Of a DNA stretch of 64,000 nt, positions 31,158-59,618 are shown in pieces. This DNA comes from a virus. Within the stretch, counting starts at the first letter, position 1. The number at the start of each line of letters is the position of its first letter. A program made the position numbers and the translations under genes. The notes beneath the pieces are model-generated. The model was not told the origin of the DNA. It did not search any database and saw nothing but the letters and a program-made list of their open reading frames with translations. Where the stretch lies: positions 1 to 64,000 of IMG/VR virus record IMGVR_UViG_3300021962_007611; one strand, written 5' to 3'.

Positions 31158-31517
31158 ATGTCAGCTTTCGAACCTAAAAAAATAAAAATCAAAGCAATCC
31201 GCGATCATGTCATAGTCGCCGATATGGATTTTGGTGAACAAAAAACCAGCTCTGGTATTATTTTAAAGTCCGACGACGGAAAAGTTCATGGTATCAAATC
31301 TCGTTGGGGGAAAGTATATGCCGTGGGTCCTGAACAAGACGATGTTAAAGTAGGACAATGGGTCTTAGTAGAACACGGTAGATGGACCAGGGGCATGGAA
31401 ATTGACGACGGCGATGGCGTAAAGACTATTCGTAAAGTCGAAACGAGTTCTATGCTGGCTGTTTCTGATGAGCCACCAACTTCTGATGATCTTTTCATTC
31501 CTCTGGTAAACTCTTAA
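31158..31517 (+). CDS. GroES/gp31-like co-chaperonin (119 aa)
   Basis: Fold signature of Cpn10: KAIRDHVIVADMDFGEQKTS, then SGIILKSDDGKVHG as the mobile-loop region, RWGKVYAVGP and VGQWVLVEHGRW. In T4, gp31 replaces GroES for folding the major capsid protein. The roof loop differs from bacterial GroES. It is an early-operon gene, coupled to the next gene by overlapping stop and start. Confidence 0.85.
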   Translation: MSAFEPKKIKIKAIRDHVIVADMDFGEQKTSSGIILKSDDGKVHGIKSRWGKVYAVGPEQDDVKVGQWVLVEHGRWTRGMEIDDGDGVKTIRKVETSSMLAVSDEPPTSDDLFIPLVNS

Positions 31518-31759
31518 TGGGCTTCAAGAAAAATTGGGACGCAGCTGATATAGCCAATCAGCTGCATTCTCTAGCAAGAGAATGTGCCAGTCCCTATAAC
31601 GATGGATTCACATCGTTTGAATGTAAAAAAGATTTATACCTTATTAAAAAAATAGTCGACAGTGCTCTAGCCGATGCTCCTGATTTTGGTGAATTAGAAC
31701 AACGTTGGTTAAAAGAGCAAGAACAAAAATCATTGATAAAAATTCTCAAGGAGTCATAA
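31517..31759 (+). CDS. Hypothetical protein (80 aa)
   Basis: Helical, slightly acidic protein (SLARECASPYNDGFTSFECK). A perfect 9-bp inverted repeat with a 7-base loop (31541-31565) lies in its first codons. It starts in the stop of the co-chaperonin gene and overlaps the MazG start by one base. No family recognised with confidence. Confidence 0.7.
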   Translation: MGFKKNWDAADIANQLHSLARECASPYNDGFTSFECKKDLYLIKKIVDSALADAPDFGELEQRWLKEQEQKSLIKILKES

Positions 31760-32124
31760 TGACCAATCCATTCCGGGATCAAGAAAAGTTCATGCGAGCT
31801 TGCGATCAAACAGTAGGTGATTTTAATCAAGATCAATTTAAACTTTATATCAAATTAATGGAAGAAGAGTGGAAAGAACTTAAAGTAGCCATTGATAATA
31901 ATGATAGACTAGAAACACTAGACGCCCTTTTAGATTTCATTGTCGTCACTGTGGGTGCTATACACAGTGGAGGTTACGACGGTGAAGGCGGCTGGAAAGA
32001 AGTTATCGGTACCAACCTTGCTAAAATTGACAAAGAAACCGGCAAGGTGCGTAAGCGTGAAGATGGCAAGGTATTGAAACCTCTAGGATGGACACCACCG
32101 GATCTTAATCCCTATGTAAAATGA
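31759..32124 (+). CDS. MazG-like NTP pyrophosphohydrolase (121 aa)
   Basis: EEEWKELKVAIDNNDRLETL followed by DALLDFIVVTVGAIHSGGY is the ExxE12-28ExxD-type helical metal site of all-alpha NTP pyrophosphatases. Such enzymes hydrolyse (d)NTPs or related nucleotides, and in marine phages have been proposed to act on stress nucleotides or nucleotide pools. The start at ATG 31759 overlaps the upstream stop; an earlier in-frame ATG at 31705 would lie inside the neighbour. Confidence 0.82.
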   Translation: MTNPFRDQEKFMRACDQTVGDFNQDQFKLYIKLMEEEWKELKVAIDNNDRLETLDALLDFIVVTVGAIHSGGYDGEGGWKEVIGTNLAKIDKETGKVRKREDGKVLKPLGWTPPDLNPYVK

Positions 32125-32876
32125 AAAAATTAATACTGATAGCGATATCAGTATTAATGATTTCAACGGCCCATGCGAATGGGCCTTCTCATTTAGTACT
32201 TGATATCTCTGAAAAAGAAACTATATCATCTGTCGCCGATGATAAAGTTAGACCTATTGCGTCCATTACTAAATTGATGACTGCTCTAATTATCGTAGAA
32301 TCAAATATAACGATGAATGAGGAAGTTGACTACAAGGGCGGTATATGGCGAAGCAAGAGAGTAAAAAGATCCGACCTCCTCGAATCGCTATTAATCAAAA
32401 GCGATAATCAGGCAGCAGAAGCATTAGCGGCATCCTTCCCCGGTGGTAAAGAGCTGTTTGTTGCTTTCATGAATATCAAAGCTAAACAGCTAGGCATGAA
32501 AAACACACAGTTTGAGGATCCTAGTGGGTTGGGAAGTCATAACTTAAGTACAGCTAGGGATCTCGCTATTTTGGTAATAAAGGCCTACGAGCATCCAGAA
32601 ATTAGTAATACATCGTCATCTAAATTTTTCAAAGTAGAAATCAAAAAGAAAAGAAAAATTACCTATATGTCAGTCGGTAACACCAATAATGCGTTGTTAA
32701 ATTTATTCGATAATATCACTTTGAGCAAAACTGGATATACAAATCCTGCGGGACGCTGTTTGGCATTAATAGTTGAGAAAAATAATAAAAAGTATGCTAT
32801 AATAATACTAGGAGAAAGAACTTCTGGCGATAGATTTTATCGTGCTAGAAATTTAATTAATATGGTATCAGAATGA
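32121..32876 (+). CDS. Secreted D-alanyl-D-alanine carboxypeptidase-like enzyme (251 aa)
   Basis: A signal peptide (residues 1-19, ending STAHA) directs export. All three penicillin-binding-protein motifs are present: SITK (48-51, nucleophile Ser), SDN (94-96) and KTG (203-205). ARDLAILVIKAY and PSGLGSHNLSTA match PBP5/6-type peptidases. It lacks the C-terminal membrane anchor of PBP5, so it may be free in the periplasm and trim stem peptides. Two strong hairpins lie in the signal-peptide codons. It is in the early operon, not with the lysis genes. Confidence 0.88.
   Translation: MKKLILIAISVLMISTAHANGPSHLVLDISEKETISSVADDKVRPIASITKLMTALIIVESNITMNEEVDYKGGIWRSKRVKRSDLLESLLIKSDNQAAEALAASFPGGKELFVAFMNIKAKQLGMKNTQFEDPSGLGSHNLSTARDLAILVIKAYEHPEISNTSSSKFFKVEIKKKRKITYMSVGNTNNALLNLFDNITLSKTGYTNPAGRCLALIVEKNNKKYAIIILGERTSGDRFYRARNLINMVSE
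32129..32158 (+). promoter_or_regulatory. Perfect 13-bp hairpin with GCGA tetraloop in CDS
   Basis: ATTAATACTGATA and its exact complement TATCAGTATTAAT flank GCGA, a GNRA-type tetraloop. It starts eight bases after the ATG of the DD-peptidase, close enough to limit ribosome loading. Confidence 0.6.
32168..32185 (+). promoter_or_regulatory. Second GCGA-tetraloop hairpin in CDS
   Basis: GGCCCAT, GCGA, ATGGGCC: a perfect 7-bp GC-rich stem nine bases after the first hairpin, with the same tetraloop. Confidence 0.55.
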
Positions 32877-43344: not shown

Positions 43345-43370
43345 TTCATTTACCGTTCACAATAGATCAC

Positions 43371-43378
43371 GATAAATA
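43371..43378 (+). promoter_or_regulatory. Late promoter
   Basis: GATAAATAC, 25 bases before ATG 43404; it would drive the presumed head-protein cluster. Confidence 0.65.
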
Positions 43379-43403
43379 CAGTATCATTCTAAAGAGAGAT
43401 ACT

Positions 43404-44132
43404 ATGCGTGATCTATTAAGCAAATTAGACGGTATTGTCAGCGAAACTGCCCTTAATCCTAAAGATCCTAAGAGCGATTATCAAGCGAAATCCCAAGCAC
43501 TAGATGATCTAGAGCAGGATCCTGTTGTAGCAGGCGATCCGGAACTATCTGCGGCTGTTGAACAGAGAAGAGCCGATCTAGAAAAAGAAGCCGAATCTGC
43601 TGGAGTACTAGAAGTAGGTGATGCTTTTGGTATTAGTTTTAACGAAGATTTTGAGATTGAAACAGAAATCGTCGGTTTCTTAGCAGATGGCATTGTTATT
43701 GACCTAGACGAAACAGCTATAGCTCATCTACAAGAAAATAATATAAGCTTCTTAGAGGGCGAAGTAGTCACAGAAGAAAAAATCAAAGGTGTAGATGGAA
43801 AGGCCTGCTGGAAGGGCTACAAACGTATGGGTACCAAACAGAAGGGCGGCAAAACCGTAGACAACTGTGTTAAGGTCGGTGAAGATATCGACGAAGCTAA
43901 GTATCAAGGTCGTGAAGTTCCGCTAGGTAAAAAGATGGCGGGCGATGTTAAAAAATCAAAAGTATATGTACGCAAGCCTAACGGTAATATTGTCAAAGTA
44001 AACTTCGGCGATAAGAAAATGCGTATTAAGAAATCAAATCCGGCACGTAGAAAATCATTCCGTGCTAGACATAATTGTAAAAACCCAGGTCCACGTTGGA
44101 AAGCGAGATACTGGTCCTGTAGGAGCTGGTAA
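43404..44132 (+). CDS. Presumed virion protein with basic C-terminal module (242 aa)
   Basis: Acidic N-terminal two thirds begin MRDLLSKLDGIVSE. A middle segment (KACWKGYKRMGTKQKGGKTV) and the C-terminal module (residues about 166-242, GDKKMRIKKSNPARRKSFRA then RWKARYWSCRSW) recur in marine T4-like phages. IDE-A at 162-165 fits the T4 gp21 cleavage pattern and would release a 78-residue basic fragment. DNA-associated head protein is an inference. Confidence 0.75.
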   Translation: MRDLLSKLDGIVSETALNPKDPKSDYQAKSQALDDLEQDPVVAGDPELSAAVEQRRADLEKEAESAGVLEVGDAFGISFNEDFEIETEIVGFLADGIVIDLDETAIAHLQENNISFLEGEVVTEEKIKGVDGKACWKGYKRMGTKQKGGKTVDNCVKVGEDIDEAKYQGREVPLGKKMAGDVKKSKVYVRKPNGNIVKVNFGDKKMRIKKSNPARRKSFRARHNCKNPGPRWKARYWSCRSW

Positions 44133-50126: not shown

Positions 50127-50159
50127 AAAAGCCAGTCAACCCATTGACTGGCTTTTTTA
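50127..50159 (+). terminator. Rho-independent terminator
   Basis: AAAAGCCAGTCAA (50127-50139), loop CCCA, TTGACTGGCTTTT with a T run to 50159. It closes the head-protein transcript. Confidence 0.9.
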
Positions 50160-50172
50160 TTGACTATATAAT
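50144..50172 (+). promoter_or_regulatory. Sigma70 promoter sharing its -35 with a terminator arm
   Basis: TTGACT (50144-50149) is the first part of the terminator's right arm; 17-base spacer; TATAAT (50167-50172). Start near 50179, serving the DsbA-like gene and those after it. Confidence 0.75.
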
Positions 50173-50197
50173 ATACATTATTAACCGGAGTCAATAA

Positions 50198-58327: not shown

Positions 58328-58531
58328 ATGAAACCGCAAGTTGAGAAAATTTTTGACGATCTCGACCGTTACTTAGATTTTTGCCGTTTTGAGTTGCGTG
58401 ATTTTAATCCCGCACATCTATATAACAAAGATAATGAAAATTATCGTGCGTTCGTAAACAGTCAACGTCCACCAAGACGTTGGGATAATAATAACCGAGG
58501 CTATAAGCCTTATCAAAAGCGTTATGGCTAA
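58328..58531 (+). CDS. Small basic hypothetical protein (67 aa)
   Basis: ATG 58328 has AAAGGAAA about eight bases upstream and is preferred over ATG 58211. An acidic helix (MKPQVEKIFDDLDRYLDFCR) leads to an Arg/Asn-rich tail (PPRRWDNNNRGYKPYQKRYG), suggesting interaction with nucleic acid or RNA polymerase. Overlaps the glycosyltransferase start by eight bases. Confidence 0.65.
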   Translation: MKPQVEKIFDDLDRYLDFCRFELRDFNPAHLYNKDNENYRAFVNSQRPPRRWDNNNRGYKPYQKRYG

Positions 58532-59618
58532 AATATTTCTTGTTGACTTAGAAGCCGTTGAAACAAGATATACAGGCGAGTGGAAATCCCACTTGCCTGC
58601 CTTGCTGCGAAAGAGAGGACACGATGTTCAAGTTATATCTGGCCCTGAGGATATTCCTGCTGCCACTACTCCTGGCGCCTTTCTTAATTTTGGGGGGACT
58701 AATATATACAAGTCTCGACAAGTTGAAGAATTCAGTCGTTTATTTACATCCGGATCAGTTAAGCATGGGGATCATTTTATTTTTACTGATGCTTGGCATC
58801 CTGGCATCATAAATTTAAAATACATGAGCGAACTTCTTGGTATTAAGATCAAGATCCATGCTCTATGGCATGCTGGTAGTTATGATCCTCAAGACTTCTT
58901 AGGAAGACTTATTGGTAATGCTCCGTGGGTTAGGCATGCCGAGAAATCATTCTTCGCAGCCATTGACCATAATTACTTTGCCACTAACTTTCATATTGAC
59001 ATGTTCCATCATAATCTACTAAATGACGGGCTTGTTGAAAATCCTTGGGAAGAAGAAGATAAAGCAGATATGCTAGAAAGTGGAAAATATGTCCGCTCAG
59101 GATGGCCTATGGAGTATATGGCAGATACATTGCTGATGTATAAGAATATGCCTAAGCGTGATCTTATTCTTTTCCCGCATCGCATCGCTCCAGAAAAGCA
59201 ATTACCGATCTTTGAAGATCTTAAAAAGCATTTGCCGCAATATGAATTCCGTGTATGTCAAGAATATCCGCTGACTAAAAACGAATATCATAACCTATTA
59301 GGTGAATCTAAACTGGTATTCAGTGCTAATCTACAAGAAACACTAGGTATCAGTTGGTATGAAGGTGCGATAGTTGATGCTATTCCCATGGTTCCGGACA
59401 GACTAAGTTATAGTGAGATGGCATTTGATACATTTAAATATCCCTCAGAGTGGACGGAGAGTTACGAATCCTACGAAGTTCATAGAAAAGAAGTTTGTCA
59501 TAAGATTGTCCAGTATATGGAAAATTATGAAAAATTCCTTCCAAGCCTAAATAAACAGGTACATGCGTTAACTGAGAATTATTTCAGTTGCGACAATCTA
59601 TTAAAGATGTTAAAATAA
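58524..59618 (+). CDS. GT-B-type glycosyltransferase-like protein (364 aa)
   Basis: Two-lobed pattern: N-terminal HLPALLRKRGHDVQVISGPE, C-terminal RDLILFPHRIAPEKQLPIFE and NLQETLGISWYEGAIVDAIP, which correspond to the donor-binding half of GT-B enzymes (the ExxGxxxxE-like region). The acceptor is unknown; glucosylation of phage DNA or host glycans are both possible. Lies directly before folE. Confidence 0.72.
   Translation: MAKIFLVDLEAVETRYTGEWKSHLPALLRKRGHDVQVISGPEDIPAATTPGAFLNFGGTNIYKSRQVEEFSRLFTSGSVKHGDHFIFTDAWHPGIINLKYMSELLGIKIKIHALWHAGSYDPQDFLGRLIGNAPWVRHAEKSFFAAIDHNYFATNFHIDMFHHNLLNDGLVENPWEEEDKADMLESGKYVRSGWPMEYMADTLLMYKNMPKRDLILFPHRIAPEKQLPIFEDLKKHLPQYEFRVCQEYPLTKNEYHNLLGESKLVFSANLQETLGISWYEGAIVDAIPMVPDRLSYSEMAFDTFKYPSEWTESYESYEVHRKEVCHKIVQYMENYEKFLPSLNKQVHALTENYFSCDNLLKMLK

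Follow-up and report, generated by a model that had tools for sequence, protein, structure and literature searches.

Why does a phage gene that encodes a secreted enzyme of the cell wall open with two strong RNA hairpins, just past its overlap with the gene before it? The question arises in a window of 64,000 nucleotides, the whole stretch of DNA analysed here, whose source record is a 64-kb virus fragment. On its + strand, a mazG-like gene (31759-32124; Pfam PF01503) is followed by a gene for a secreted D,D-peptidase of the Peptidase_S11 family (32121-32876; PF00768, E 1.1e-42), and the TGA stop of the former (32122-32124) shares the sequence ATGA with the start of the latter. The peptidase carries the signal peptide MKKLILIAISVLMISTAHA, and the SxxK, SxN and KTG motifs required of the family appear in the translation as SITK, SDN and KTG. 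No Shine-Dalgarno match of at least 4 nt is present at the peptidase start. The site is therefore an overlapping gene junction, a setting in which the part played by structure in reinitiation is debated.

The genes are arranged in the order groES-like, an 80-aa gene, mazG-like, peptidase, cytidylyltransferase-like and clamp loader. The closest named phages to the clamp loader are the PA5oct-like Pseudomonas jumbo phages (Arenbergviridae), at 55%. Four viral contigs (L001-L004) encode close relatives of the peptidase, with protein identities of 84, 80, 78 and 77%, and make up, together with the window, a clade of five members. The hairpin region has no DNA match among cultured phages, where the best protein match is 36%, and the genome contigs searched contained no relative. 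Over the 64-kb window, no Rfam family reached its gathering score, and the tRNA search gave nothing. Of the 80 loci retrieved through the neighbouring cytidylyltransferase (L015-L094), only eight match the DD-peptidase. Judged from these loci, the DD-peptidase appears to be accessory in the interval that runs from mazG to the cytidylyltransferase.

The first-pass annotation had described two tandem perfect hairpins of 13 and 7 bp, both with GCGA loops and separated by a 9-nt spacer, within the opening 65 nt of the peptidase ORF, and this description is exact to the base. Hairpin 1 (32129-32158, + strand) is a 13-bp perfect stem closed by a GCGA loop at 32142-32145. Its conserved core, TACTGATA-GNRA-TATCAGTA (32134-32153, + strand), comprises 8 bp and starts at +14. 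Hairpin 2 (32168-32185, + strand) has a 7-bp stem, which reaches 9 bp in L001 and L003, and a GCGA loop at 32175-32178. In the window, hairpin 1 can be lengthened until each arm measures 20 nt, with 90% complementarity (TGAAA..TTTCA, 32122-32165), and then runs into the ATG; this outer TGAAA/TTTCA extension is not conserved among the relatives. The consensus fold also predicts a possible closing helix on the + strand, P1, in which AAATGA (32119-32124), containing the start and stop codons, would pair with TCATTT (32189-32194), so that P1 and the two hairpins would meet in a three-way junction. As P1 has no covariation and shows mismatches in two other members (L001 and L004), it is only a suggestion.

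The stability of this region is exceptional. Positions 32100-32220 fold at -38.1 kcal/mol (z -5.96), and none of 200 dinucleotide shuffles is as good. When 80-nt windows are moved along the + strand in steps of 20, 32121-32200 has the lowest MFE (-32.1 kcal/mol) and the third-lowest z (-6.6) of 3196 windows, while the first 45 nt of the peptidase ORF give -17.8 kcal/mol. A scan of the 64 kb finds 41 perfect stems of at least 7 bp, and only hairpins 1 and 2 are GNRA-capped on either strand. When the protein is kept fixed and the codons are drawn according to the phage's own usage, the mean of the recoded sequences is -10.0 kcal/mol versus -32.1, and none of 2000 recodings equals the window. In the relatives, synonymous recodings that fold equally well number 0 of 2000 for L001 and for L003, 7 of 2000 for L004 and 87 of 2000 for L002.

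Comparison within the clade separates the two hairpins. All four relatives keep TACTGATA-G[CT][AG]A-TATCAGTA, in genes that are 72-83% identical in nucleotides, and the loop variants of hairpin 1 (GCGA, GCAA and GTAA) are all GNRA. The inner 8 bp do not vary, although G-U pairs and synonymous codons would permit change. Codons 6, 7, 9, 10 and 11 (L6, I7, I9, S10 and V11) are identical in the five genomes, which is the longest such run in the gene. Over the gene, 42 of the 153 degenerate codons with an invariant amino acid are identical in all five members, and in pairwise comparisons 50-65% of the same-residue codons are identical. The chance that the five hairpin codons are all identical is about 8e-5, an approximation obtained as the product of residue-specific rates outside the hairpin. 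Codons 226-232 of the same gene have third-position conservation equal to that of the hairpin.

Five sequences provide few independent covariation events: the outer pair of hairpin 1 changes from T-A to C-G on both sides in L002 and L003, probably as one event, and a pair of hairpin 2 changes from C-G to T-A in L003 and L004. In the alignment, 98.3% of the cells pair in hairpin 1 and 84.4% in hairpin 2, and a shift of the partner columns by 1-3 lowers pairing from 92% to 24-58%. Hairpin 2 is retained in three of the five members, being absent in L002 and mostly gone in L004, where the peptide differs as well. The tandem arrangement is less conserved than hairpin 1. Consequently, the initial statement that chance occurrence of the pair is very unlikely holds strongly for hairpin 1 across the relatives and less strongly for the two in tandem, given the two clade members in which hairpin 2 is wholly or largely lost. 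The synonymous-site comparison and the synonymous-codon control, both proposed in the first-pass annotation, speak for selection on the RNA structure, at any rate in hairpin 1, and the case that it had named as contrary evidence, the same protein with a broken and uncompensated stem, was not encountered for this hairpin. As read from the five genomes, the conservation of hairpin 1 demonstrably exceeds what the protein requires, and the structure is present and under selection. Its retention almost letter for letter by related phages indicates a real RNA signal, and provides a clear case, backed by an evolutionary test, of RNA structure selected within a phage coding region.

Outside the clade the situation is different. 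Homologues at 37-59% identity have neither hairpin; their signal peptides differ, and some are found in the same mazG context. This indicates that the feature arose within, or survived only in, the close clade. The structure is missing even from homologues at 57-58% identity in the same mazG context, and hence the gene works without the hairpins. A general feature of phage DD-peptidases was considered and rejected, since 63 distinct homologue starts average a z of +0.45 and the close clade alone is structured. A feature of the mazG stop itself was likewise rejected, as relatives that lack the peptidase are mostly unstructured there or have a terminator. The motif has nine matches in viral contigs, four in this clade and five in unrelated places, which by our estimate is about the chance level for a large collection. 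In L008 a similar peptide, LLLIAISV, is encoded in a short unrelated ORF and is taken as a coincidence.

The position of hairpin 1 relative to mazG suggests what it may do. In a synthetic operon, a stable structure just past the stop codon reduced downstream expression; such structures were named ribosome termination structures (RTS), and they are depleted inside operons (Chemla et al. 2020, PMC7518266). The peptidase hairpins are similar to an RTS in that a stable mRNA structure stands directly 3' of a stop codon, not covered by the terminating ribosome, where two genes closely adjoin. They differ in lying inside the coding sequence of the next gene, at an operon-internal ATGA overlap, and in being conserved by sequence and not by stability alone. 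The segment 32121-32200, after the mazG stop at 32124, is more stable than the level of about -6 kcal/mol per window that characterizes an RTS, with window and energy settings that differ from those of PMC7518266, and as the + strand minimum of the 64 kb it exceeds the stability of its surroundings. The stem of hairpin 1 lies 5 nt, and its core 10 nt, downstream of the last base of the mazG stop, and the core, at +14 from the AUG, is placed just outside an initiating or terminating ribosome.

Because the hairpin occupies the RTS position, we tentatively favour the possibility of an RTS-like hairpin in the early coding region that, at the mazG/peptidase junction, would hold back both reinitiation on the peptidase gene and the first steps of its elongation. 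Its location in the zone of strong early folding, which these phages show genome-wide, also counts in favour. A ribosome finishing mazG would sit at the ATGA with its leading edge against the core of hairpin 1 (about +14). The stable stem would then cut the odds of reinitiation on the overlapping ATG, which has no Shine-Dalgarno sequence, and the ribosomes that do reinitiate may be slowed over the first codons. The output of the cell-wall enzyme would be set low relative to the upstream gene, below the full operon level. Hairpin 1 probably limits how much enzyme is made. Given the depletion of RTSs inside operons, the occurrence of an RTS between two genes of one operon calls for an explanation, and limiting a cell-wall enzyme is our guess at it. 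The peptidase hairpins can be regarded as an RTS-like, early-coding structure in an unusual place, with a function that we infer from its sequence and position. Of the roles suggested initially, a translation brake stays viable in this form, and no evidence was found for a thermosensor.

The main rival is a generic one. For 45% of organisms, Peeri and Tuller (2020, PMC7063772) report strong folding early in the coding region, at 30-70 nt. In a scan with windows coarser than those of PMC7063772 and with shuffles that preserve dinucleotides and not codons, an excess of this kind is present genome-wide in the window and in relatives of 269 kb (G003) and 188 kb (G004), with mean z values of -1.03, -1.08 and -0.93 over +20..+100, and of -0.38, -0.35 and -0.55 over +100..+180; PA5oct and T4 give -0.70 and -0.68 over +20..+100. 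The peptidase hairpins, which also fold strongly about 30-70 nt past the start, are an extreme case of this peak: the gene ranks 1 of 63 in the window both for the start region and for +20..+100, 2 of 141 in G004 (start region) and 13 of 225 in G003 (+20..+100). Several other window genes have early hairpins as well. The structure could then act without any gene-specific regulator, spacing ribosomes or preventing mispairing of the start region, and these observations make it the principal competitor of a specific restraint. We nevertheless regard it as rather unlikely, since the first rank of the peptidase stands far above the average, and a discrete hairpin with an invariant core is conserved in its exact sequence, beyond mere stability. 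A structure specific to coupled genes was also rejected, because in three related genomes overlapping junctions are no more structured than non-overlapping ones (mean z -1.08 vs -1.10), and genes with a Shine-Dalgarno sequence equal those without.

The accessibility of the start bears on two further proposals. Opening positions -15..+15 costs 6.5 kcal/mol in the window, whose genes have a median of 7.2; it costs 8.7-9.6 kcal/mol in L001-L003 and 11.8 kcal/mol in L004, and is therefore ordinary in four of the five members. In all five, opening is more costly than for the average synonymous variant; individually, only L004 (0 of 250) and the window (0.028) stand out. The start region is thus not unusually open, nor opened relative to synonymous variants, and the insulating version of the generic explanation, in which folding keeps the start open, is not supported. 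On the other hand, the ordinary costs imply that the clade does not share simple occlusion of the start, and a translation brake is not supported in that form. Occlusion has a precedent in the T4 genes e, soc, 49 and I-TevI, where a hairpin of the early transcript masks the site of initiation and an unstructured message is made later from a late promoter (PMC3014915). As in T4, a phage gene carries a hairpin at the 5' end of its mRNA, and gene e likewise acts on the cell wall; moreover, the extended hairpin 1 of the window reaches the ATG and the cost in L004 is high. The T4 hairpins, however, hide the SD or AUG, and gene e escapes through nearby late promoters, whereas here the conserved core is outside the footprint and no late motif of the ATAAATA type occurs on the + strand between 29509 and 35816. 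With both defining features failing, an occluded start of the T4 lysozyme type is distinctly improbable.

The MS2 replicase operator is a small, sequence-conserved hairpin near a start site, bound by the MS2 coat protein. T4 gp43 has a comparable operator hairpin (PMC3014915). Hairpin 1 shares these features, and a phage or host protein could bind the GNRA-capped stem and repress or protect the message. No G-U variant occurs in the inner 8 bp, so that a protein could be recognizing the sequence itself, the loop changes stay within GNRA, and the window and the 269-kb relative each contain the motif once. The same single exact copies led to the rejection of a regulon operator. As the loop's G and final A are fixed by coding constraint, the site lies within the ORF and not over a ribosome-binding site, and the binder is purely hypothetical, an RNA operator appears quite unlikely. 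Its more detailed form is less likely still: a single-copy operator in the signal-peptide coding region of this PA5oct-related group, where a putative phage protein would set the output of the secreted enzyme and the LIAISV codons would double as its site, with protein and RNA codes co-selected. A palindromic DNA operator for a transcription factor, with RNA folding incidental, would explain the perfect dyad TACTGATA-N4-TATCAGTA. Yet RNA is favoured over DNA by the GNRA loop, by the single copy per genome and by positions in L002 and L003 that pair only as G-U, and there is no promoter evidence at the site, which makes a DNA operator highly improbable. We give an equally low standing to a transcription attenuator or RNase processing, in which hairpin 2 would be terminator-like or the pair would form a cleavage or protection element. 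A simple scan does place hairpin 2, with its 7 bp and TTCTCATTTA tail, among terminator-like elements, but it passes only this loose scan, has a poor T tract (5 T of 8), is absent or mostly absent in two of the five members, and differs from the likely true terminators of these phages (AAAGGG..CCCTTTCTTTTT).

Other elements were noted in these phages. At 50127-50175 of the window, the loop or 3' arm of a terminator-like hairpin doubles as the -35 box for a promoter of the sigma-70 type; in one example, AAAGGGTCT-TGAC-AGACCCTTTCTTTTTCTATATAAT provides TTGACA, followed after 17 nt by TATAAT. Such fused terminator-promoters occur at several junctions in the phage group and once in PA5oct, among them L272:15256 and L285:6478, and directly after mazG in L105, L112, L117, L125, L137, L140 and L162. 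At 43360-43420, a late-promoter-like GATAAATAC is directly followed by a hairpin (AGTATC..GATACT) reaching as far as the ATG of a gene that begins at 43404, whose start-opening cost is high (15.3 kcal/mol). This hairpin is retained in G003 and G004, with an altered stem in the latter (AGTATGA/TCATACT). In the first 100 nt of the 80-aa gene at 31517 (31541-31617), strong hairpins of 9 and 8 bp abut each other and are joined by a third of 7 bp, and the gene's homologues have comparable but rearranged stems. The gene at 58524 carries an early-coding hairpin (about 58573-58600), CAGGCGAGTGG..CCACTTGCCTG, which is kept in two relatives, in L261 near 18020 and in L273 near 4240. The late-promoter-like motif ATAAATA is found eight times on the + strand of the window (e.g. 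24801, 29509, 35816, 43372 and 48288) and twice on the - strand, and six of the eight + strand sites precede a gene start by 12-75 nt. Finally, TATAAATA is depleted in the window, with 1 occurrence versus 6.9 expected.
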